64,000 nucleotides of DNA, taken from contig NZ_CP040936.1 in the NCBI RefSeq assembly GCF_006352025.1, positions 4,528,001-4,592,000 of the forward strand, in the 5' to 3' direction. The DNA comes from Hymenobacter sp. DG01 (GTDB lineage Bacteria > Bacteroidota > Bacteroidia > Cytophagales > Hymenobacteraceae). The notes beneath the pieces were generated by a model. The model saw only the letters and a list, made by a program, of their open reading frames with translations. It was not told the DNA's origin and did not search any database. Shown here piece by piece: positions 9,997 to 21,697 of this stretch (the first letter of the stretch is position 1; each line of letters begins with the position of its first letter). The position numbers and the translations under genes are program-made.

Positions 9997-10968
9997 CTAT
10001 GTTTTTTGCCGACTGAGGTACTGGAGGCTCACTATAGTGAAAATAAGTGTGACACCAGGCCAGGCCAGCAGCCACCAGGCCGTTGGGCTTTGGCGGATAC
10101 CGGCCAGCAGGCGGCCCCAGCTAGGTGTGTCGGGTGGCAGCCCTACTCCTAAAAACGATAAGGTAGTTTCCAGGCCAATAAGCAGAGCCACCGTGAGCGG
10201 GATGCGAACCAGCACCACAGGCCAGGTAACGGGCCAGATGTGCCGCCGCAGTAGCTGCCAGTCGGAGAGGCCGGCCGCGCGGGCAGCTTCTACGTAGGTT
10301 TGCTCCCGGGCCTGCAGGGTAGCCGCCCGCATCAGGCGGGCGGGGGTAGTCCAGCAAGTCAGCGTCATCAGCAATACGAGGCCGCCTACAGACGGCCGCT
10401 GAACGGCTGCTACCAGTAGCACCAGAATCAACAGCGGTACAGAGTCAAGCAACACAATCAGGCCCGTTACGAGAGCATCCGCTGGCAGAAGCCAGGGGCG
10501 CCGGCCCCACGGCGTGCGGTGCAAGGCCCACCCCAGCAGAGCCCCGGCGGCCAACAGCCCACCGAAGCCCGCGGCGCCCCAAGCAAGCAGCGGTGCGGCA
10601 AACAGCAGAGCGATTACCACCAGGGCTCCACCGGCCACTCCCACGCTGCGTGGCGGCCGTAATTGCGTGTTGCCCCAAAAGCCAGCCATGCTGCCGAGCC
10701 CGGCCCCGAGCAGAAGCGTAAGAATGGCAGCCGGCAGGCTTACCAGCAGAATAGTGCGGGCTCCCTGCACCAGAGCCCGGGCTACATCCTGGCCTTGCGG
10801 ATCAGTGCCCAGCCAGTGTGAGGGCAGAAAGGGAGGCTGACTGGTATGCAGCAAATCGGGGGGTAGCAGAGAGTCGGGAGCCAGTAGGGCTGCGGTTGCT
10901 ACCCCGGCCAGCCACCCGAAGGCCAACACTTGTAACCAACTGCGGGAAGGACTGCTCTGCCGTTTCAT
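9997..10968 (-). CDS. Peptide-type ABC transporter permease, DppC/OppC-like
   Basis: 323 residues from ATG 10968. Several strongly hydrophobic segments frame the ABC permease loop EAARAAGLSDWQLLRRH, the EAA motif that docks the ATPase. The amino end carries LGTDPQGQDVARALVQGAR, a DppC-family signature. The start overlaps the stop of the upstream permease by four bases (ATGA at 10965-10968), so translation is coupled. A much longer open frame upstream is only the shadow of that overlapping gene. No ATPase gene accompanies the unit, so the energy subunit must be encoded elsewhere. Confidence 0.87.
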   Translation of the reverse strand: MKRQSSPSRSWLQVLAFGWLAGVATAALLAPDSLLPPDLLHTSQPPFLPSHWLGTDPQGQDVARALVQGARTILLVSLPAAILTLLLGAGLGSMAGFWGNTQLRPPRSVGVAGGALVVIALLFAAPLLAWGAAGFGGLLAAGALLGWALHRTPWGRRPWLLPADALVTGLIVLLDSVPLLILVLLVAAVQRPSVGGLVLLMTLTCWTTPARLMRAATLQAREQTYVEAARAAGLSDWQLLRRHIWPVTWPVVLVRIPLTVALLIGLETTLSFLGVGLPPDTPSWGRLLAGIRQSPTAWWLLAWPGVTLIFTIVSLQYLSRQKT

Positions 10969-12008
10969 GCTTGCAGCCTGATGCGTGGATCCGTGAGCAG
11001 GTACAGGGCATCGGCCAGCAGCTGGGCTAGTACCCGGGCTACCACTACCAGCGTTACGCCACCCAGCAGCACTGGGTAGTCCTGGGTGGCTGCGGCCTCC
11101 GCCAGTAAGCGGCCCATACCGGGCAAGGCAAACAGCACTTCCACTACCACAGCCCCGGCTACCAGGTTCGGCAGCAGCTCCGTTAGTAGCGTAATGGTGG
11201 GCAGCAGGGCGTTGCGCAAAGCATGCCTCCACACAACCCGGCCCGGAGCAGCGCCCTTGGCCCGGGCCGTTACCACGTAAGGCTGCCGTAGTTCGCGCTG
11301 CAGGGCCGCATCCAGCTGAATGGTCAGGGCGGGTGCGCTTACCAGTACCAGGCTGCAAACCGGGAGGGCCAAATAATACAGCAGGCGGCCCGGTGCCTGC
11401 CACCAGGTAGCCGGATCTTCCTCCACACCCAGGCCAAAGGCCGGAAACCAAGCCAGAAAATCAGGGTTGGCAAACAGCATGAGCAGGCCCGTAGCTACCA
11501 GAAACAGGGGGGCGGCCTGCACGACGTGGAGCAGGGAGAGCAGCGTGGTCCGGATGGCGGGGTAGCGCCCGTTAACGCCGGTAGCCAGCCCCACACTGAC
11601 CACCGCACTGAGCAGGGCAGCCAGCACGGTTAGGGGTAGGGTGTAGCGCAGGGCCTCCAGCAGTAAGGTGCTCACTGGGGCTCCACTGCGGTAAGAGGTA
11701 CCCAACTGGCCCTGCAGCAGGCTGGCTGCCCACACATGGTATTGATTGGCGGACCCTTGCCACTGCCAGCCGTGGGCTGCGTCAAACGACACGTAAAACA
11801 ACGGCAAATCGAGGCCAGCCCGGTGCAGCAGCTGTCGGGTAAGCTGCTCGCGTTCGGCAATCTGAATGCGGCTGTCAGCCTCTAGGGCGGTTTGCACGTA
11901 GCTGGAGGCATCGGTGATGCCCCGGGTCAGCAGAAACAGGCCTGATAGTACCAGCCAAGCCGTAACCAGGTTTCTGCCAACATAGCGCCACACCGTCGGA
12001 GCCTTCAT
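10965..12008 (-). CDS. Peptide-type ABC transporter permease, DppB/OppB-like
   Basis: 347 residues from ATG 12008. The amino-terminal helix is followed by a large extracytoplasmic region with RQLLHRAGLDLPLFYVSF and QGQLGTSYRSGAPV (a DppB/OppB hallmark), then five further hydrophobic segments and the EAA-like loop VTARAKGAAPGRVVWRHAL. The C-terminal DPRIRLQA is also typical. It sits six bases downstream of the binding-protein gene and overlaps the second permease. Substrate is probably a short peptide, but nickel, haem or other DppABC substrates are possible. Confidence 0.88.
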   Translation of the reverse strand: MKAPTVWRYVGRNLVTAWLVLSGLFLLTRGITDASSYVQTALEADSRIQIAEREQLTRQLLHRAGLDLPLFYVSFDAAHGWQWQGSANQYHVWAASLLQGQLGTSYRSGAPVSTLLLEALRYTLPLTVLAALLSAVVSVGLATGVNGRYPAIRTTLLSLLHVVQAAPLFLVATGLLMLFANPDFLAWFPAFGLGVEEDPATWWQAPGRLLYYLALPVCSLVLVSAPALTIQLDAALQRELRQPYVVTARAKGAAPGRVVWRHALRNALLPTITLLTELLPNLVAGAVVVEVLFALPGMGRLLAEAAATQDYPVLLGGVTLVVVARVLAQLLADALYLLTDPRIRLQA

Positions 12009-12014
12009 ACGCCG

Positions 12015-13754
12015 TTAGCGGGTAGCTACTTTCGTTTCCAGCCGGATGCGGTTGGCGTCGTAGCCGGGAACCAGGCCCGTAACCGGTAGCGGCCCGAGGC
12101 GGCGCGAGGCAGCTACGCGGTACCGCATAAAATAGAGCACGGAGAAAGGACGCTCGTAGGCCAAGACACGCTGAAACTTGCGCAACAGCCGCGCTTTCTG
12201 CGCTGGGTTAGTAGCCACGGCTATGGCCTCAATCAGACGGTCTGTCTGGGGCGTTGAAAAGCCGGAGGTATTACCGTTGCCAAGGCCCCTGGAGTGCAGC
12301 AGAGGCGTAAAATCATACGAAAACGGATTGCCGGCCAACTGCCGGATATTCATGTCAAACTCCCCAGCCCGCAATTGCCGGCTCAGCAACGACTGTTCCG
12401 TGGGGTGCAGCTGCACTGAGATGCCCAGGGCGGCGGCCGCGCTTCTGAACTGCAAGGCTACCGTTTCAAAGCTCGGCTCACCGGCCCGATAGCTAAGGGC
12501 TAGCTGCAGGCGCTCCGGAGTAGCCTGCGGACCCTGGCGCTGCCAGCTGCCATCAGCCTGCCGCTGCCACCGGGCTTGGCGTAACAGGGCTGCCGCGCGG
12601 GCCGGGCTAAAAGAAGGCAAAGGCAGACTGTCGTTGTAGTAGGGCGTAATCCGTGGGCTGATGGGGCCTATGCTGGGGGCGGCTGCGCCTTGTTGAGTAG
12701 CCCTGATAAGGGCCGGAATATCAAACAGGTGCGTTAAGGCCTGCCTGGTAATAGCGTCACGCAGGGCAGGCCGCCGAACATTGAAGTTGGCCGCCAGAAA
12801 TTCATAGGAATCGGTGGTGTAGAAGTGCAGTCGGGTCCGGTCGGGCGCGGCTTCCTGGAGCCGGGCAAACTCGGCGGCCGGCATAAGTGCGTACAAATCT
12901 ATTTCGCCGCGGCGCAGCGCCATGGTAGCCGTAGTAGCGTCCGGAATTATCTGATAGGTAAGCCGGGGCGGGAAGGCCTGCAATTCGGGCGGGGCCACCG
13001 GCAGGGTATCGGCCCACCAGCGCGCTTTGCGCCGCAGGGTAAGGTAGCGGCCGGGTTGCCAGGCCGTGAGGGCGTAAGCGCCGCAACCTGGCAGCCGCTC
13101 GGGGTGACGGGCCAGGTTCAGGGCTTGGTATCGGCGCGCAAAAGCCTGAACAACCGGCCGGAACCGGGGCAGGGCCATTTGCGGGAGCGGTACACCCCGC
13201 AGCGCGCCGCGAGGGTCCAGCACGTATTCGGGCAGAATAGAGAAGTCACCGGAAATGCTAACCCGGTCTCCCCCTGATTGACCCGCGCAAACTAACGTGA
13301 ATTGCCGCGGGTTATTCGCGTCAAGCTCAATATCCCGGATAAACCCAAAGGTGGCCTGGTCACGCTCAATGGGTAGGCCCGGGCAGTTCATCACCTTAAG
13401 AGTGAAGGCTACGTCGCGGGCCAGCACGGGGGAGCCATTGTCCCAGGTGGCTTGTGGGCGCAGGCGGTACGTCACTAAAAGCAGCGAATCGCCGAGGGGC
13501 CGGGTGGTGGGCTGGGCTTCCGCAAGCCAGGGCACAAACCGGTTTTGAGCTTCGTTGCCCTTCAGAAGGCTGCAGTGCAGCAGGTTGATTACCTCAAAGG
13601 CGCTGGGATTATCCACCAGCAGCGGATCGAGGTTATCGGGGTCCCGGGCCCACCGGATGCGGACGGCTTCGGCGCTGGTAGCGGTGGGCGAGCAGGCACT
13701 AAGGCCCAGGCCCGCCCACACCAGCAAAACCAAACCGAGAAGTAAGTGCTTCAT
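12015..13754 (-). CDS. ABC transporter substrate-binding lipoprotein (SBP family 5)
   Basis: 579 residues from ATG 13754. The signal peptide MKHLLLGLVLLVWAGLGLSAC ends in a lipobox (LSAC, Cys21), so it is an anchored lipoprotein. Family 5 features include the early RWARDPDNLDPLLVDN, RLRPQATWDNGSPVLARDV (the usual W-x-DG-P region), and the late FDMNIRQLAGNPFSYDF and DANRIRLE. Such proteins bind oligopeptides or similar ligands and pass them to the two permeases encoded directly downstream. First gene of a three-gene operon; the small repeat-peptide gene lies 76 bases upstream on the same strand. Confidence 0.9.
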   Translation of the reverse strand: MKHLLLGLVLLVWAGLGLSACSPTATSAEAVRIRWARDPDNLDPLLVDNPSAFEVINLLHCSLLKGNEAQNRFVPWLAEAQPTTRPLGDSLLLVTYRLRPQATWDNGSPVLARDVAFTLKVMNCPGLPIERDQATFGFIRDIELDANNPRQFTLVCAGQSGGDRVSISGDFSILPEYVLDPRGALRGVPLPQMALPRFRPVVQAFARRYQALNLARHPERLPGCGAYALTAWQPGRYLTLRRKARWWADTLPVAPPELQAFPPRLTYQIIPDATTATMALRRGEIDLYALMPAAEFARLQEAAPDRTRLHFYTTDSYEFLAANFNVRRPALRDAITRQALTHLFDIPALIRATQQGAAAPSIGPISPRITPYYNDSLPLPSFSPARAAALLRQARWQRQADGSWQRQGPQATPERLQLALSYRAGEPSFETVALQFRSAAAALGISVQLHPTEQSLLSRQLRAGEFDMNIRQLAGNPFSYDFTPLLHSRGLGNGNTSGFSTPQTDRLIEAIAVATNPAQKARLLRKFQRVLAYERPFSVLYFMRYRVAASRRLGPLPVTGLVPGYDANRIRLETKVATR

Positions 13755-13830
13755 GAACGGGTAACCGCGCGGGGTATTAGGCCGGGCAAGTTACCACGTT
13801 TTAGGCAGCAGGTAGAATACTGCGCAGGCC

Positions 13831-14019
13831 TTAGTGGCCTTCACCCCAGCCGCTGGTGCCATGGTCGGCATCAATGTGGCCTTCGCCCCAGCCGCTGGTG
13901 CCGTGCTCATCAAGCGACGACGTCTGGGTAGTAGCAGCGTTCTGATCTGCGGAGGCGGGAGCAGACGTGAAAGAGAGGGTGGAAAGCTGGAGGAGGCCGA
14001 AGAGGAGAAGCTCAAACAT
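13831..14019 (-). CDS. Small secreted peptide with duplicated HGTSGWGEGH
   Basis: 62 residues from ATG 14019. The amino end MFELLLFGLLQLSTLSF and a following small-residue stretch (TSAPASADQ) resemble a signal peptide with a cleavage site near residue 22-24. The mature part would be about 38 residues and ends in two copies of HGTSGWGEGH, 14 residues apart and the second at the very C-terminus. At DNA level the units 13834-13863 and 13876-13905 differ at only two of 30 positions. No family is known to me. It lies upstream of the peptide ABC operon on the same strand and divergent from the TPR-like gene. A 93-codon frame overlaps it in another phase but has no such structure. Confidence 0.55.
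   Translation of the reverse strand: MFELLLFGLLQLSTLSFTSAPASADQNAATTQTSSLDEHGTSGWGEGHIDADHGTSGWGEGH
13834..13905. repeat. Tandem 42-base repeat (two copies, 30 conserved)
   Basis: Two 30-base blocks, 13834-13863 and 13876-13905, that are identical except at two positions; they repeat with a 42-base period and encode HGTSGWGEGH on the minus strand. Confidence 0.9.
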
Positions 14020-14386
14020 GGTCTGGAGTATTTGTGGTTCAAGTGGTTGACTGACACAAATGTGGGCTTCAAACCAAGCGGCGTAAAGGACAGAGAAAGG
14101 GTAAATGTGACGCCCTTTTCAGTTCAGATTACTGACAAATAAACTTGGCGCTGGCCCTTTTTGGCATCCATAAAGCCAATACAAAGGATTCACCCTCTGT
14201 TTGGGCTGGTCATTTTATCTTCGAATGTGACATATAGATCTTTGAAAGGCCCCAAAAACTTAAGTACAAATGACTGTTATACCTTGGCAAGTGTAAAGGC
14301 ATAAGTTGCTTAATTTGTGACATGGATTTAAATAACCCTGTATATTGCACAACCCCCCTTAATTAGCCCCAAAGCCATATTTTACT
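14020..14386. promoter_or_regulatory. Divergent AT-rich intergenic region with TGTGAC motifs
   Basis: This 367-base region separates the small peptide gene (minus) from the TPR-like gene (plus). It holds TGTGAC at 14106-14111, 14226-14231 and 14316-14321; another lies just inside the TPR-like gene (14416-14421). The best copies read AATTTGTGACAT. A small palindrome CACAAATGTG is at 14055-14064. No clear TAnnTTTG box was found for either gene. The repeated motif is a candidate operator, but spacing and orientation give no proof of binding. Confidence 0.5.
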
Positions 14387-15928
14387 ATGGATGAATTAGC
14401 TACTTTAGTAAAAATTGTGACAGATAGACGGTTAGCCGTGCTTCCTTTTCTGGATTTTTCGGCCCGCAAATCCACTAATAAAGATTTACAGCTGGTACGG
14501 CTGCTGGAGCAGGAGCCCAACATTACGCAGAGCAAGCTCATCAAGGGGTTATATGGCAATACTGAGCAGAAAAGTCAGGCGGCGTTTCGGCAGCTGAAGT
14601 CCCGGGTGCAGCAAAAGCTGCTGAACCACTTATACTTCCTCGACCATACCGACGCCCGGCACGTAGTGGCTCGCCGGCACGAGCAGCATTGCCTGGGCCT
14701 GCTGCACCAGGCGCGTATCCTCACGGGTGAGGGGGAATACAAGTTGGCTGAAAAGCTCTACCGAAAGGCTACTACGGTAGCCATAGATGCCGAGCTGACC
14801 CAGTACGCCGTGATGTGCACCCGGATTCTGCGCAATCTCTACGCCGAAATGCGTAACCCCACCCGCTTCAAGGCCATGAACCAGCAGTTAAGCAAACTGC
14901 AGGAGCGGCTGACCCTGGAGGATGAGGCTGAGCAGACATTTTTTGAGGTAAAGATGTTTTCAATCTATCAGGTTCGATGGCGCCAGTTTCTGATCAAGCA
15001 GCTGCCCGGATACCTGGAGCAGCTAGAACAGCTCCATAAGAAAGTAAATAGTTATAACACATTCTATTATCTGTATGTAACGAAGCTCTCCCGGGAGGAG
15101 CTGGAGGGCAATTATGAGGAGATTATCAAAATTACGTCGGAAACGGAGAAGGCCCGAAAGCAGGGTAAAATCAACGAAAAACGTTTCGATAAGCGCTTTA
15201 ACAACTACATGAGCGTGTACGCACACCTGCGCTGTCGGCAGGCCGAAAAGGGACTGGTGCTGGCCGAGGAATATTTCAAGGATTTTCATTACTCCTCCGG
15301 CAACTGGTTTTATTACCTCGAAACCTACCTGCTGCTGGCCGTACATGCGCGGCAGTATGAGCAGGCGCTGGACCTACTGCAGCAGGCGCGTAAAAACCCC
15401 TACTACCGCAAGCAGCGGGAGGCAGCCCAGCAGCGCTGGGAGCTGTATGAGGCCTACATTCAGTTTGTGCAGCCGGAACAGTCGCCGCTGAAGATGCGGC
15501 ACTTCAACCAGTTCGTGCAGAAGGTACCCGACTACAGCCGCGACAAGCAGGGGTACAACGTAGCCATCCTGATTCTTCAGTTTCTGTATTTCCTGCGGCG
15601 CCGGGACGTAGAAGGCTTGCTGGCCCGCCTGGAAGGCCTGCGCAAGTACGAGCAGCGCCACCTGCGCGACCCTGCCACGCTGCGCAGCCAGCTCTTCTTC
15701 CGGATGCTGCTGATGACGGTTAAAGAAAACTTTGCTCCGGAGGCGTGCGAGAAAAAGGCCGCTCCTTTGCTGGAACGGCTCCGGGCCGCCCCACAGCCCG
15801 GCGAGGCTTACGGCGAGATTGAGATTGTTCCGTACGAAGACCTCTGGGAACTGGCCCTGAGTATTCTGCGGCAGCTAGCTGCCGAGCAATCAGCAGAGGA
15901 GCACGCTACCCGCAATCGGGTATTATAA
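14387..15928 (+). CDS. TPR-like helical protein with possible N-terminal winged helix
   Basis: 513 residues from ATG 14387. Residues about 30-85 (LVRLLEQEPNITQSKLIKG then AFRQLKSRVQQKLLNHLYFL) have the spacing of a winged-helix module as in bacterial transcriptional activator domains, with a helix that resembles the LRxxLxRLRxxL pattern. From about 95 to 500 the protein is all-helical, with paired helices of TPR type (GEYKLAEKLYRKATTVA, RQYEQALDLLQQARKN). I know of similar uncharacterised proteins in Cytophagales but no function. The layout next to a peptide gene and an oligopeptide importer recalls peptide-receptor regulators of the RRNPP group; that is inference. Confidence 0.75.
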   Translation: MDELATLVKIVTDRRLAVLPFLDFSARKSTNKDLQLVRLLEQEPNITQSKLIKGLYGNTEQKSQAAFRQLKSRVQQKLLNHLYFLDHTDARHVVARRHEQHCLGLLHQARILTGEGEYKLAEKLYRKATTVAIDAELTQYAVMCTRILRNLYAEMRNPTRFKAMNQQLSKLQERLTLEDEAEQTFFEVKMFSIYQVRWRQFLIKQLPGYLEQLEQLHKKVNSYNTFYYLYVTKLSREELEGNYEEIIKITSETEKARKQGKINEKRFDKRFNNYMSVYAHLRCRQAEKGLVLAEEYFKDFHYSSGNWFYYLETYLLLAVHARQYEQALDLLQQARKNPYYRKQREAAQQRWELYEAYIQFVQPEQSPLKMRHFNQFVQKVPDYSRDKQGYNVAILILQFLYFLRRRDVEGLLARLEGLRKYEQRHLRDPATLRSQLFFRMLLMTVKENFAPEACEKKAAPLLERLRAAPQPGEAYGEIEIVPYEDLWELALSILRQLAAEQSAEEHATRNRVL

Positions 15929-17270: not shown

Positions 17271-17999
17271 TCAGAACCGGTTGAGCCGCTGAAATACCTC
17301 GCGCTGATAGGTCTGTCCAATCGGAATGTGCTTGTCGTCGATGATAACGGTGTTATCTTCAATGGTTTGTATCCGCTTCAGATTGACAATAAACGAGCGG
17401 TGCACGCGCACGAACAGGGAAGACGGAAACTTCTCTTCCACCGCCCGCATGGTGCTGTACACAATGAGCTTGCTCTTGGCCGTGACAATGTGCACGTAGT
17501 CGCCGAGAGCTTCTACGTAGCGTACCTCGTCAAAAAGCACCTTCACCAGCTTGCTGTCCACCTTCACGAAGGTAAACTGGTCGTTGCCAGGGGCTTCTAT
17601 CGGCTCAGGGGCAGGGTTGGAGCGCGACTCGTGGGTAGCCAGGGCCTTTTGGGCGGCCTGCAGAAAGCGGGCGTAGCTGATGGGCTTCACTACGTAGTCC
17701 AGTACCTCGTGCTCAAAGGCCTCCACGGCATAGCTCTTGCTGCTGGTAATGAGGATGACGAGGGGCGGGTGCTGCAGGGTGCGCAGCAGGTCCAGGCCCG
17801 ACATCAAGGGCATTTCCACGTCCAGAAACAGCAGGTCAATGGGCTGGGTGCGCAGCACTTCGGCGGCGGCAATGGCGCTGTCGCAGCTACCGGCGTGCAC
17901 CAGGAAGGACGTGCTGGCTATGCAATTTTCAACAATCTGCAGGGCCAGCGGGTCATCATCAACAACCAGGCAGCGCAAGGGGATAGCGGTTTCAGCCAT
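17271..17999 (-). CDS. LytTR-family response regulator
   Basis: 242 residues from ATG 17999. The receiver domain (about residues 7-120) has CLVVDDDPLA, phospho-acceptor Asp60 in LLFLDVEMP, and a T-S-K/Y switch region (ITSSKSYAVEAF). The C-terminal LytTR DNA-binding domain (about 145-242) shows FVKVDSKLVKVLFDEV, RYVEALGDYVHI and VRVHRSFIVN. It probably answers to the hybrid kinase gene immediately upstream on the same strand, but has its own promoter box only six bases before the ATG. An ATG at 18020 precedes that box and is rejected. Confidence 0.92.
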   Translation of the reverse strand: MAETAIPLRCLVVDDDPLALQIVENCIASTSFLVHAGSCDSAIAAAEVLRTQPIDLLFLDVEMPLMSGLDLLRTLQHPPLVILITSSKSYAVEAFEHEVLDYVVKPISYARFLQAAQKALATHESRSNPAPEPIEAPGNDQFTFVKVDSKLVKVLFDEVRYVEALGDYVHIVTAKSKLIVYSTMRAVEEKFPSSLFVRVHRSFIVNLKRIQTIEDNTVIIDDKHIPIGQTYQREVFQRLNRF

Positions 18000-18004
18000 A
18001 ACGT

Positions 18005-18012
18005 CAAAGGTA
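18005..18012 (-). promoter_or_regulatory. -7 box TACCTTTG, near-leaderless start
   Basis: Exact match on the minus strand. Only five bases separate it from the LytTR ATG, so the mRNA would have almost no 5' leader. Confidence 0.6.
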
Positions 18013-18040
18013 CAAGTCAACCCGAAAAAAGCCTATAGCC

Positions 18041-21000
18041 TTAAGCCGGAGTTTGCGGTAGCCGAAGCTGCAGCAGGGGATATAAGCTCATGAGCTGCTG
18101 CTGAATAAGCTCAAGCAGCTCCGGCAACTCGGCGGGTAGCTTTCCCATTCGGCCTTCCTGCTCCACCTGTTCCAGCTGCTGCGTGAGCTGCTCCATCCCG
18201 AAATACGCTACCTGCCCTTTGAGCTTATGAGCCACGGCTGCCAGCTCGGCCCCGGAAGCGGCGCTCAGCAGCTGGGCCGCCAGCGGAGGCGCCTGCGTCA
18301 GAAAAGTCCGAACAATCTGCACTACAAAGCTTTCGTTGCCGCTCGCCAGTTCTTCCAGCAGGCTCCAGTCGGGCTGCGGGGGTAGGGGGGCAAGCGGATG
18401 AAGGAAGGGAGAGGCCTCCGCCGGGCCCGGAGCTGCGGAAGGCTGGGGAGCCGCGTCGCGGCCCGTGAAATAGGCCAGGCGGGCATAAAGCACGGCCGGG
18501 TCAAAGGGCTTGGCCAGGGTATCGTTCATGCCGGCCTGCAGGGCCAAGGCGCGGTCTTCGGGGAGGGCCGAGGCCGTCAGGCCAATAAGCGGGAAGCGGC
18601 CGGCATCCGGGAACAGCTGGCGTAGCTGGCGGGCGGCTTCGTATCCGTCCATTTCCGGCATCTGTACGTCGAGCAGCACCGCGTCAAACGGCTGCTGCCA
18701 GGCAGCGGCCACGGCCAGGCGGCCATTGGCAGCAATGGTTACCTGCACGTTCCAGGCTTCCAGGGTTTTGCGGGCCACCAACTGGTTCAGGTCGTTGTCT
18801 TCAGCTACCAGCACCCGCAGGGCCGGCTCGAAGGGTGCCAGGGAGGCAGTTGTTTCAGGTCGGACGCTGGCCTCATCGGCGGGCAGGCAGGGAATTTCAA
18901 ACCAGAAGGTGGAGCCCTCGCCTTCCGTGCTTTCCACCCACATGCGGCCCCCGTGCAGGTGCACCAGGTTCCGGGCGATGCTCAGGCCGAGGCCCGTACC
19001 GCCGAACTGCCGGGTAGTGCTGGCGTTGGCCTGGGAGAAGTCCTCGAAAATGGCCTCCAGCTTATCGGCGGCAATGCCGATACCGGTGTCCTGCACGGCA
19101 AAGCGGAGGCGGGGCAGCTCTGCATCGGGTACCAGCGCTACGCGCAGGCCAACTTCGCCCTGGGTGGTAAATTTCACGGCGTTGCCGACGAGGTTTACCA
19201 GCACCTGATTCAGCCGCACCGAGTCGCCGAAAATGGCGGCCGGAACCTGCGGGCCTACCTCGGTGCGCAACCGCAGGCCCTTGGCTTCCGTGGCAAAGGC
19301 AAACATGCGGCCTATCCGCTCAATCAGCTCCGGCAGGCGGAAGGGAGTCTGCTCCAGGGTCAGCTTACCAGCCTCCATCTTCGAGGAGTCCAGAATATCG
19401 TTGATGATGACCAGCAGATTCTGCGACGACGACTGAATGGCTTCGAGGTATTCGCCCTGCTCGCCGCTCACGGGCGTGTTGCGCAGCAGATGGGTCAGGC
19501 CAATAACCGCATTCATGGGCGTGCGGATTTCGTGGCTCATGTTAGCCAGGAACTGCGCCTTGGCCCGGCGTGAGGCCTCGGCGGCATCCCGGGCCACGCG
19601 CAAATCGGCGTTGATCTGCTCTATTTCGGCTTTTTGCTGGCGTAACTCGGCAGTTCGCTCGCGCACAGTGGTTTCCAGCTGCAGTTTCTGGCGGCGCAGC
19701 GTCAGCTCCCTACCCCGCACAAATGCCCAAATGCCCGCGCCGGCCGCTACCAGGCTCAGGGCCGCAAACCACCCGGTGCGCCAGAACGGGGTAGCAATAC
19801 TGAACGAGGTAGTCGCCGGCCCCGACCAGCGGCCCTGTCCGCCCAACCGGGTCCGCACTTCAAACGTGTACTGCCCCGCATCCAGGCGTGGAAACTGGGC
19901 TTCCCCCACGGTGGTTGGGCTGCTCCACTGGGCGTGGTGGCCCCGCAGGCGATATTGGTACTGCACGCCCGCCTGCCCCGGCAGCAGACTGATGCCCCGA
20001 AACCGGAAGCTAACCCGATGCCGGGTAGCCGACAGCTCGCCTAGCTGCTGGGGTGGGCGCGCGGCCCCATCTACCTCGCTGGCCAGCAGGGTGGGGGTAG
20101 GGGTGCTGGTGCCGGGTAGCAGCTCTGGCTCGTCGGTGCGCAGGACCAGTAAGCCGGTGCGGGTCAGCATCCAGAGGCAGTATTCATTCCATGCCACGGT
20201 GGCCTGGGGCAGCAGGTCGCGCACGAAGGGGTTTCCGGGCAGGGTAGCCGGCGCGAAATGCCGGCCGGAATCCGCGAAGCTGATGGCATTGCGGTGCACG
20301 GCTACCATCTGCTCCCGCCGGGCATCATGTTGGTAGCCGCCGTGGTAGTTGGTGCCCCAGCGCACGGGCAGTAAGGCATAGCAGTAGGGTGAGGCCAGGC
20401 CCTGCGGAGTGCTGTAGATCCGGAATTTATTGTTAGCGTAGCAAAGCACTCCCGAGCCTTCCGTACCAATCCAGACGCGGCCGGCATCATCGGTAACCAG
20501 TGCCGAAACATCCAGGCCGCCCTTGGGAAAACGGTGGTACCGGAACCGGCCGCGCTGCCATACCGCCAAGCCCGTATCGTGGGTGCCAATCCACACGCGG
20601 CCGGCAGTATCGGCCGTGAGGGCATAAATGGTGTTATGAAGCAGGCCGTTGGCCGTGGTGAAGTGCTGAGCCGGCCGGACAGAATCGGCGGGCAAACGGT
20701 ACACGCCATCCAGCGCGGTGCCTACCCATAAGTCGCCGTTCGGGTGCTGGGTAAGCGCCGTAACGCTGAGGTTGGCCGGTAGCCGCCGAACCCGCCGCAT
20801 TTTCGCCAAGCGACCTCTCGGGACCGGTACTGCTATCTGCCACAAGCCGTATCCGGCTGTCCCGGCCCATATAACGGAAGGGGGCGTTGTGGGGTGCTGG
20901 TTCCTGAATACTGCTAAAGCACGCTCATCGGGCGTGCTCAACATCACGCTAGGAGCATAAGGCAGCAGGTTTTCTGACCATGTTATGGGCGAGGATTGGT

Positions 21001-21697
21001 CGGTCTGATTTCTTAAACCAACCAACTGACCGTTGACGTTTGCACCAACTGCGCGGCCATTACTGGTAAGCGCCGTGATATTTCCTCCGGCCCGGAAGGG
21101 GTAAAACGTCACATGCCGGTCCGACCAGCGCCACAGGCCCTGCCCAGCCGTGCCAATCCAGAGGTTGTGCTCCCGATCCGGCAGTACGCACTGCGGTACA
21201 GTACCCGGTGGCAGCAGATGATGCAAGCCAAAAGAAGGCTCAAAACCGGGTGGCTCTACTATGGTGGAAGGAGCTTTCTCATACTCTCTGAATGCCGTGT
21301 CGGGCGGCAATATGCCGGTGTGCGGGCGTAAGGGGGCGGTTTTAGCCGCAACTGCCGATACTCGCCGAAACCCATTACCATTCTGGCAGGACACCCCACC
21401 CTGGTAGTGGCCCACCCACAGCTGGCCGGTGCGCGGGTGCACGTACAGCCGGGTCACAAAGTCTTCGGCTAGCCCCTGCCGGGTAGTAAACGTCACGAAC
21501 TCGGTGCCATCAAAGCGCATCAAGCCCTCGGCGGTACCAATCCAGAGGTAGCCGGCGCGGTCCTGGGCCAGGGCGTAGATAAAAGGCTGGGGCAGGCCTT
21601 CCGCCGCCCCAAACTGCTTCAGGAATCGTTGGCCCGGCAGCAGCTGCGCCGTGGCAACGTGGGCAAAAAAGAGCAGAAGAAGCAGTACACGGCGCAT
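18041..21697 (-). CDS. Hybrid two-component sensor kinase (propeller, Y_Y_Y, HisKA, HATPase, REC, Hpt)
   Basis: 1218 residues from ATG 21697. A signal peptide is followed by regulator-propeller repeats (about 30-530; for example YLWIGTAEGLMRFDGTEF), a Y_Y_Y domain (about 560-635), a transmembrane helix (about 645-665) and a coiled coil. The dimerisation domain has phospho-acceptor His722 in NMSHEIRTPMN; the ATPase shows NAVKFT and GTGLGLSIAR. The receiver has Asp1010 (LLDVQMPEMDG) and the C-terminal Hpt domain has His1157 (AHKLKG). This is the one-protein phosphorelay type that in Bacteroidota often senses polysaccharides. It sits 41 bases upstream of the LytTR regulator, the likely output partner. 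No carbohydrate operon is adjacent. Confidence 0.93.
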   Translation of the reverse strand: MRRVLLLLLFFAHVATAQLLPGQRFLKQFGAAEGLPQPFIYALAQDRAGYLWIGTAEGLMRFDGTEFVTFTTRQGLAEDFVTRLYVHPRTGQLWVGHYQGGVSCQNGNGFRRVSAVAAKTAPLRPHTGILPPDTAFREYEKAPSTIVEPPGFEPSFGLHHLLPPGTVPQCVLPDREHNLWIGTAGQGLWRWSDRHVTFYPFRAGGNITALTSNGRAVGANVNGQLVGLRNQTDQSSPITWSENLLPYAPSVMLSTPDERALAVFRNQHPTTPPSVIWAGTAGYGLWQIAVPVPRGRLAKMRRVRRLPANLSVTALTQHPNGDLWVGTALDGVYRLPADSVRPAQHFTTANGLLHNTIYALTADTAGRVWIGTHDTGLAVWQRGRFRYHRFPKGGLDVSALVTDDAGRVWIGTEGSGVLCYANNKFRIYSTPQGLASPYCYALLPVRWGTNYHGGYQHDARREQMVAVHRNAISFADSGRHFAPATLPGNPFVRDLLPQATVAWNEYCLWMLTRTGLLVLRTDEPELLPGTSTPTPTLLASEVDGAARPPQQLGELSATRHRVSFRFRGISLLPGQAGVQYQYRLRGHHAQWSSPTTVGEAQFPRLDAGQYTFEVRTRLGGQGRWSGPATTSFSIATPFWRTGWFAALSLVAAGAGIWAFVRGRELTLRRQKLQLETTVRERTAELRQQKAEIEQINADLRVARDAAEASRRAKAQFLANMSHEIRTPMNAVIGLTHLLRNTPVSGEQGEYLEAIQSSSQNLLVIINDILDSSKMEAGKLTLEQTPFRLPELIERIGRMFAFATEAKGLRLRTEVGPQVPAAIFGDSVRLNQVLVNLVGNAVKFTTQGEVGLRVALVPDAELPRLRFAVQDTGIGIAADKLEAIFEDFSQANASTTRQFGGTGLGLSIARNLVHLHGGRMWVESTEGEGSTFWFEIPCLPADEASVRPETTASLAPFEPALRVLVAEDNDLNQLVARKTLEAWNVQVTIAANGRLAVAAAWQQPFDAVLLDVQMPEMDGYEAARQLRQLFPDAGRFPLIGLTASALPEDRALALQAGMNDTLAKPFDPAVLYARLAYFTGRDAAPQPSAAPGPAEASPFLHPLAPLPPQPDWSLLEELASGNESFVVQIVRTFLTQAPPLAAQLLSAASGAELAAVAHKLKGQVAYFGMEQLTQQLEQVEQEGRMGKLPAELPELLELIQQQLMSLYPLLQLRLPQTPA

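Follow-up and report, generated by a model that had tools for sequence, protein, structure and literature searches.

The window analysed here is a stretch of 64,000 nucleotides from Hymenobacter sp. DG01 (assembly GCF_006352025.1, contig NZ_CP040936.1, positions 4,528,001-4,592,000), and all coordinates below are relative to it. It contains a locus in which a gene for a small repeat-bearing peptide precursor and the genes of a peptide importer stand divergent from a gene for a candidate receptor of tetratricopeptide repeat (TPR) character. Read along the minus strand, the peptide precursor gene (13831..14019; ATG start, 62 residues) is followed by the genes for an extracellular solute-binding protein of family 5, OppA/DppA-like (12015..13754; 579 residues; Pfam SBP_bac_5, E 7.5e-46), an OppB-like permease (10965..12008; 347 residues; BPD_transp_1, E 6.5e-27; best NCBIfam matches Opp2B/Opp4B, below cut-off) and an OppC-like permease (9997..10977; 326 residues; BPD_transp_1, E 8e-20; best NCBIfam match Opp4C, below cut-off), whose start is most likely the ATG at 10977, the listed 484-residue frame at 9997 being too long. 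By Pfam, a family 5 binding protein with two BPD_transp_1 permeases makes up an Opp-type importer set. The candidate receptor, a TPR-like protein of 513 residues without a curated family, is encoded on the plus strand (14387..15928). ORF translation confirmed the 62-residue peptide with two HGTSGWGEGH copies and the divergent 513-residue protein described in an earlier sequence-only reading of this DNA, and the TGTGAC repeats that it placed between the genes were found on the plus strand at 14106, 14226, 14316 and 14416. Its three-gene importer without an ATPase held as to content, since a binding protein and two permeases are present and no ATPase gene lies in the putative peptide-importer operon, but the range that it gave, 12015-9997, omits the binding-protein gene.

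The precursor consists of a hydrophobic leader (residues 1-18, MFELLLFGLLQLSTLSFT; 13966..14019, minus strand), a Ser/Thr/Ala linker and two core copies, at residues 39-48 (13876..13905, minus strand) and at the C-terminal residues 53-62 (13834..13863, minus strand). A script run on 119 oriented loci, with one locus (L183) excluded beforehand, gave 100 related peptides (75 from Hymenobacter, 25 from others), in which cores were counted as Trp residues after residue 20: 40 genes carry one core, 11 two, 17 three, 11 four, and the others five to eighteen, while the precursor grows from 62 residues in the window to as many as 271 in other loci. Cores are 8-10 residues long with the consensus G-x-x-G-W-x-x-D/G, and His is common at their ends in Hymenobacter; Gly at W-4 was found in 99 of the 100 peptides. 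The leader resembles MLELIAIALLQLASL by eye in the same-genus loci, and its Q11 is kept in 74/75 Hymenobacter and 17/25 other peptides. In genes that have three or more cores (49 genes), the core copies within a gene differ almost purely synonymously (pS 0.467, pN 0.018, pN/pS 0.039), whereas the spacers of the same genes do not show such constraint (pS 0.616, pN 0.267, pN/pS 0.433). The core repeats are therefore under strong purifying selection at the protein level, and old copies that remain unchanged as protein are what a short active product predicts. Diverged core copies occur as exceptions in L159 and L168, and a few changes in L101, L102, L160 and L176. According to the script, the peptide gene starts with GTG rather than ATG in 14/75 Hymenobacter loci (L099-L178). 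When a 172-residue relative was searched against 5.8 billion proteins, none of the 66 candidates, itself included, reached E 0.01, which may be because the gene is rarely called or because its simple composition defeats the search. An attenuator in the gap between the peptide and binding-protein genes was also considered, and folding gave nothing (z -0.30).

Within Hymenobacter, the TPR-like gene was found in 32 of 37 genomes and the binding-protein gene in exactly the same 32; five genomes lack both, one of which (G036) is only 82% complete. Because the peptide search was weak, some true peptides scoring only E up to 4.8, absence from these five is claimed for the TPR-like and binding-protein genes only. 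By eye, all 32 loci (the window and L061-L091) have a minus-strand peptide ORF that contains at least one Gly-Trp core and lies some 350-380 bp ahead of the TPR start, and the binding-protein gene and both permease genes lie upstream in 30 of the 31 fetched same-genus loci, the remaining one (L089) being rearranged. In a larger named set, the best 80 of 303 relatives in a scan (Hymenobacter species and Solirubrum puertoriconensis), the whole peptide gene is present in 74 loci, runs off the contig end in 5 and is missing in one (L116). The outer flanks, whose neighbours carry the by-eye labels CYP, rmlD, PKD, LytR and HK, are largely conserved within the genus too. Beyond it, 107 of 390 genomes from the order contain relatives according to a profile of 24 TPR-like proteins, and 39 wider loci (L179-L217) were chosen from these by hand. 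The binding protein and both permeases are encoded upstream in 25 of them (L179-L182, L184-L203, L205) and 12 have none; the script found a peptide in the same 25, with possible ones, by eye only, in L212 and L215. The module is thus present in 24 of the 25 fetched loci of five other Hymenobacteraceae genera, and additionally in L205, which belongs to another family; Pontibacter is one of the five, the L198 protein matching Pontibacter fetidus at 100%. CYP and rmlD neighbours were matched in 0/39 wider loci (the stretches compared reach about 7.1-7.8 kb upstream, so that some CYP copies farther away may have escaped), and the LytR and HK flanks are clearly kept only in L179 and L182. Since the outer flanks are mostly lost outside the genus, it is the module and not the region that is conserved, and the co-occurrence in related genomes that the sequence-only reading had named in advance as its test is strongly borne out. 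Given this conservation, the core selection and the shuffle comparisons described below, the peptide-importer-receptor locus is more than a chance arrangement.

We then asked which protein the core follows, using rank partial Mantel correlations over 48 Hymenobacter loci (of 75, the full gene set was present in 52, of which 4 were dropped as near-identical). Given LytR, core distances correlate with those of the TPR-like protein (0.394), the binding protein (0.337) and the permease (0.206), each at p 0.001, a level that is overstated as related species are not independent; the leader follows the TPR-like protein more weakly (0.175). Allowing for the binding protein leaves the correlation between core and TPR-like protein at 0.320 (p 0.001), whereas allowing for the TPR-like protein leaves that between core and binding protein at 0.068 (p 0.12). 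Correcting for the importer thus leaves the core sequence co-varying with the TPR-like protein, and the reverse does not hold. Linkage alone does not predict this asymmetry, because the peptide gene lies nearer to the binding-protein gene than to the TPR-like gene.

The DNA between the divergent genes has an operator-like architecture. On the minus strand, motif alignment placed a GTCACA proximal site of a first promoter-like module, P1, at 14106..14111 and its distal site, 120 bp away, at 14226..14231, with a CCTTT box at 14085..14089 followed by CATTTGTG (about 14055-14062); a second module, P2, has its proximal GTCACA at 14316..14321, its distal one, 100 bp away and inside the receptor gene, at 14416..14421, and a CCTTT box at 14295..14299. 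The order on the peptide strand, GTCACA, CCTTT box and CTTTG-like box, therefore gives a promoter-like module pointing towards the peptide gene twice. TGTGAC recurs at three positions counted from the TPR start, namely near -160 (25 of the first 33 aligned upstream regions), near -70 (17) and at +29 (30), and 17 regions have it at all three; in the named set plus the window (75 Hymenobacter loci), the corresponding counts are 61, 45 and 68, with all three in 43 and none in 5. The +29 site coincides with receptor codons 10-12, where [A/G]TTGTGAC is kept in 72/80 loci even though ATT makes up 52% of the Ile and GTG 61% of the Val codons in these genes, so the DNA itself appears to be conserved. 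A pattern of two GT(C/T)AC words 80-120 bp apart, with the box 10-26 bp after the proximal site, was found in 49/75 Hymenobacter loci with a peptide (0.08 expected by shuffles), in 16/24 of other Hymenobacteraceae (0.02 expected) and in 4/5 loci cut by a contig end; it is absent from the 12 distant TPR loci and from both peptide-less paralogues (L116, L183). In this search, which ended at 120 bp, the spacings form groups at 98-101, 107-111 and 118-120 bp, between which none falls, apart from three singles at 83-91 and one more at 91 among the cut loci; such steps of about one helical turn suggest that the two sites are bridged by protein, although related loci share spacings by descent. Outside Hymenobacter, genus g26 keeps TGTGAC in 4/4 peptide loci, and GTAAC words are enriched in the other genera (AAGTAAC in 9/10 Pontibacter-type loci, GTAACTA in 5/7 of g25, GTAACA in 4/4 of the rest), with AAAGGAAA in 7/7 g25 loci and 3/4 of the rest. 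A CRP-type palindrome was rejected, no matching TCACA half being visible near the window TGTGAC sites.

The TPR assignment of the candidate receptor comes from Pfam matches that are weak and below cut-off (E 0.032 in the window protein and no better than 0.016 in 24 relatives). The 513-residue protein has no NCBIfam match, a sequence search of the PDB gave none either, and Pfam and NCBIfam scans of 24 members revealed no known RRNPPA receptor family. A sliding-window attempt to locate the peptide-binding part gave its top partial r around residues 175-249, without a significance test, and was not used. Several relatives depart from the usual arrangement. L116 (H. piscis contig 14, a second TPR copy) and L183 (G358:C8) are paralogues without a peptide gene and without operator sites, L183 adjoining only a binding-protein gene and no permeases, and in L089 (G011) a short gap separates a second TPR copy from a binding-protein gene; these paralogues are possible eavesdropping receptors. 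As for the importer, a fused OppDF-type ATPase of 664 residues with two oligo_HPY matches is encoded elsewhere in the genome (C1, about 3585400-3586700); the 3.1 kb around it contain no importer ORF. We infer that this ATPase powers the importer of the present locus.

The gene content, conservation, co-occurrence, core selection, receptor co-variation and operator-like architecture observed here are consistent with an autoinducing peptide-signalling module with an intracellular TPR-like receptor, RRNPP-like in its logic, and we consider that this is probably what the locus is. The peptide and importer genes would be transcribed as an operon, and the product of the small gene would be a precursor in which a hydrophobic leader and a flexible linker precede one to eighteen near-identical cores. 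After export, to the periplasm at the least, it would be cleaved into short core peptides, which the binding protein and the two permeases, powered by the OppDF-type ATPase from elsewhere, may return to the cytoplasm. There the TPR-like protein would bind the core and, directly or via a partner, act at GT(C/T)AC pairs whole helical turns apart, the putative targets being the peptide-importer genes and a few others. Our guess is that the regulation is activation, because the promoter-like modules resemble a weak form of the usual Bacteroidota promoter. The peptide-signalling interpretation of the sequence-only reading is partly supported, and what it gains comes, besides the co-occurrence, from the protein-level selection on the cores, their co-variation with the TPR-like protein and the conserved operator-like architecture.

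Several observations weigh against this signalling interpretation. A DNA-binding domain in the TPR-like protein, which the sequence-only reading had proposed as a possible winged helix, was sought with the PDB, Pfam, NCBIfam, PHROGs and hhalign, and the matches were weak or none: Trans_reg_C matched 1/24 members (E 9.4e-4, a weak match), HTH_24 and GMT-wHTH one of 39 each (0.056 and 0.059), and hhalign against seven OmpR-type domains gave E 0.0012 with a probability of 19% over 29 columns, which in a rerun became E 0.016 with 1/40 column-shuffled controls better, not clearly above the controls. The commonest weak N-terminal match is instead NNH6, a helical NACHT-type domain and not a helix-turn-helix (6/39, best 0.003). 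The leader, hydrophobic but devoid of basic residues in the window peptide, has none in the first 20 residues of 71/75 Hymenobacter and 22/25 other peptides, unlike ordinary signal peptides, and the outer membrane of Gram-negative bacteria separates the cells from one another. Five loci (L120, L121, L125, L164, L174) have no TGTGAC at any of the three positions, the full site pair is missing in 26/75 Hymenobacter peptide loci under the pair pattern, and it was found in 0/2 loci of other families with a peptide. The fused ATPase also occurs in the four TPR-less genomes searched and is not specific, and in one genome (G040) the peptide and TPR-like genes lie together while the binding-protein relative lies elsewhere with no adjoining permease. 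The non-independence of species behind the Mantel p-values belongs here as well.

Some of these points would suit a cell-autonomous sensor, in which the peptide is cut in the envelope and re-imported by the same cell, so that its return reports secretion, proteolysis or growth and no intercellular signal is involved; the Gram-negative envelope, the importer genes directly behind the peptide gene and the unusual leader without basic residues all speak for it. However, the cores diversify between species together with the TPR-like protein, as in pherotypes, and their amplification to as many as 18 copies would raise the dose as expected of a secreted signal, two observations that lower the standing of such a sensor rather than removing it, and we regard it as unlikely but worth keeping in mind. 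The repeated core, in which Gly and Trp hardly vary and Asp or His is frequent, together with nickel-type NCBIfam matches of the importer (all far below cut-off), might alternatively indicate a modified peptide, RiPP-like and for example cyclised from Gly to Asp, which serves as an antimicrobial or metallophore, is taken up by the Opp-type importer and has its production regulated by the TPR-like protein. We find this improbable: the importer and TPR-like genes stay with the module across genera (the queries were window genes, the flanks being unscanned for enzymes), the core His at W-5 occurs in only 21/75 Hymenobacter and 0/25 other peptides, and no co-variation of core and binding protein is left after allowing for the TPR-like protein. 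The reading in which the importer serves general peptide nutrition and the small protein, unrelated to it, is its neighbour by inheritance comes close to the chance placement that the sequence-only reading had allowed for; it would agree with the conserved outer flanks within the genus, but it is very unlikely and already contradicted by the persistence of the module outside the genus where those flanks are mostly gone, by the joint absence of the TPR-like and binding-protein genes from five genomes and by the strong purifying selection on the cores.

Firmicutes and their mobile elements are known to use peptide pheromones that are imported and recognised by TPR receptors. The present locus shares with the RRNPP/RRNPPA systems (Rap, Rgg, NprR, PlcR, PrgX, ComR, AimR) a small precursor gene beside a receptor gene, here that of a candidate receptor of TPR-like character and divergent with about 270-510 bp between the starts, and, by analogy, presumably peptide import. 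It differs in belonging to Bacteroidota, with two membranes, in a candidate receptor without detectable similarity to RRNPPA families, and further in the linked importer genes, in the number of cores, which reaches 18, and in the helically phased distant site pairs. According to the portions of text retrieved from two RRNPPA surveys, these covered only Firmicutes, their mobile elements and viruses (PMC10075063; PMC9765709), some precursors carry several pheromones and some receptors have no precursor (PMC9765709), and precursors were expected to have 10-100 residues, a basic N-terminus and a hydrophobic centre (PMC10075063). Against this profile, as far as that text gives it, the precursors here reach 271 residues and have no basic N-terminus, while a hydrophobic leader is present. 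Because of the missing family match, the other phylum and the leader that departs from the published profile, we do not file the locus as an RRNPP member. In the yeast alpha-factor precursor, several pheromone copies separated by variable spacers are cut from one precursor; the several copies of one peptide and the variable spacers recall our precursors, whereas that system is eukaryotic, uses a surface receptor and is unrelated in sequence. The importer resembles the Opp/Dpp/Nik type (binding protein of family 5 plus two permeases, by Pfam), but its ATPase gene lies outside the operon, and it stands beside peptide and TPR-like genes in 30/31 same-genus and 25/39 wider loci. No description of such a system in Bacteroidota was found among the matches listed from the open-licence PMC literature. 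We lean, with reserve, towards an undescribed form of peptide quorum sensing in Gram-negative Bacteroidota, in which precursors carry multiple cores, each species has its own pherotype co-evolving with an unrelated intracellular receptor of TPR-like type, re-import is dedicated, the DNA sites are phased at whole helical turns about 100-120 bp apart, and peptide-less paralogues are possible eavesdroppers. If this is true, the import-type logic has evolved more than once and functions across an outer membrane. The repeated cores, the receptor co-variation and the named DNA sites make the circuit directly testable, and about 100 loci that differ naturally in core sequence and copy number offer a ready set for specificity studies.

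Further targets were sought with a stricter pattern, GTCACN92-116GTCACAN8-17CCTTT, in 25 of the 37 genus genomes (G036 excluded). It matched in 20/21 TPR-bearing genomes, 19 of them at this locus, and in 0/4 TPR-less ones. Elsewhere it matched at eleven places in 7 genomes, some of which must be chance, since the reversed control also gave 5 matches in 4 genomes. Among the eleven, five precede members of a small-protein family (b), three precede CarboxypepD_reg proteins, one precedes a hydrophobic ORF of 34-41 residues and one has no clear gene. Family (b), without a Pfam match above cut-off, occurs in only 10/59 genomes, all of them TPR-bearing, and has the site pair in 6 of the 10, five of these coming from the pattern search itself, so that the independent score is 1/5 with the pair and 2 with a single site. 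The CarboxypepD_reg-like family (a) was rejected as a general target, as only 2/28 relatives have the pair, both from the pattern search (L266 was excluded as too short). A looser promoter pattern run on 16 genomes found sites at this locus and others, of which the one in G002 was dropped as an ordinary promoter by eye. Another search, of the window's own genome, gave four matches, two at this locus and two in other places (L096, L097). The hydrophobic ORF (L094:3040-3350, G018:C11) follows a site pair spaced by 110 bp and has no visible core similarity; it is perhaps a second peptide of the circuit.

A few loci deserve separate mention. Beside the module, the window encodes at 17271-21697 a LytTR-type response regulator and a large hybrid sensor kinase (by eye), which are present in many same-genus loci. 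In L091 (G005:C1:3197900-3201800), the binding-protein match is in three pieces and the TPR match in two, reflecting decay or sequencing errors. L204 and L213 form a distant TPR-like group of about 25% identity beside TatA-like genes (by eye), in which no peptide gene was seen and which is perhaps an older paralogue. In L215/L274 (G107:C10), the importer genes (binding protein, both permeases) stand on the opposite side of the TPR-like gene and are followed by a fused ATPase with two domains by eye, and a possible precursor upstream ends in AGGGGIVVTTWPVA, unlike other cores. Finally, the Pontibacter-type loci L194 and L198-L203 carry two to four tandem TPR-like genes behind one peptide gene, with four in L203.

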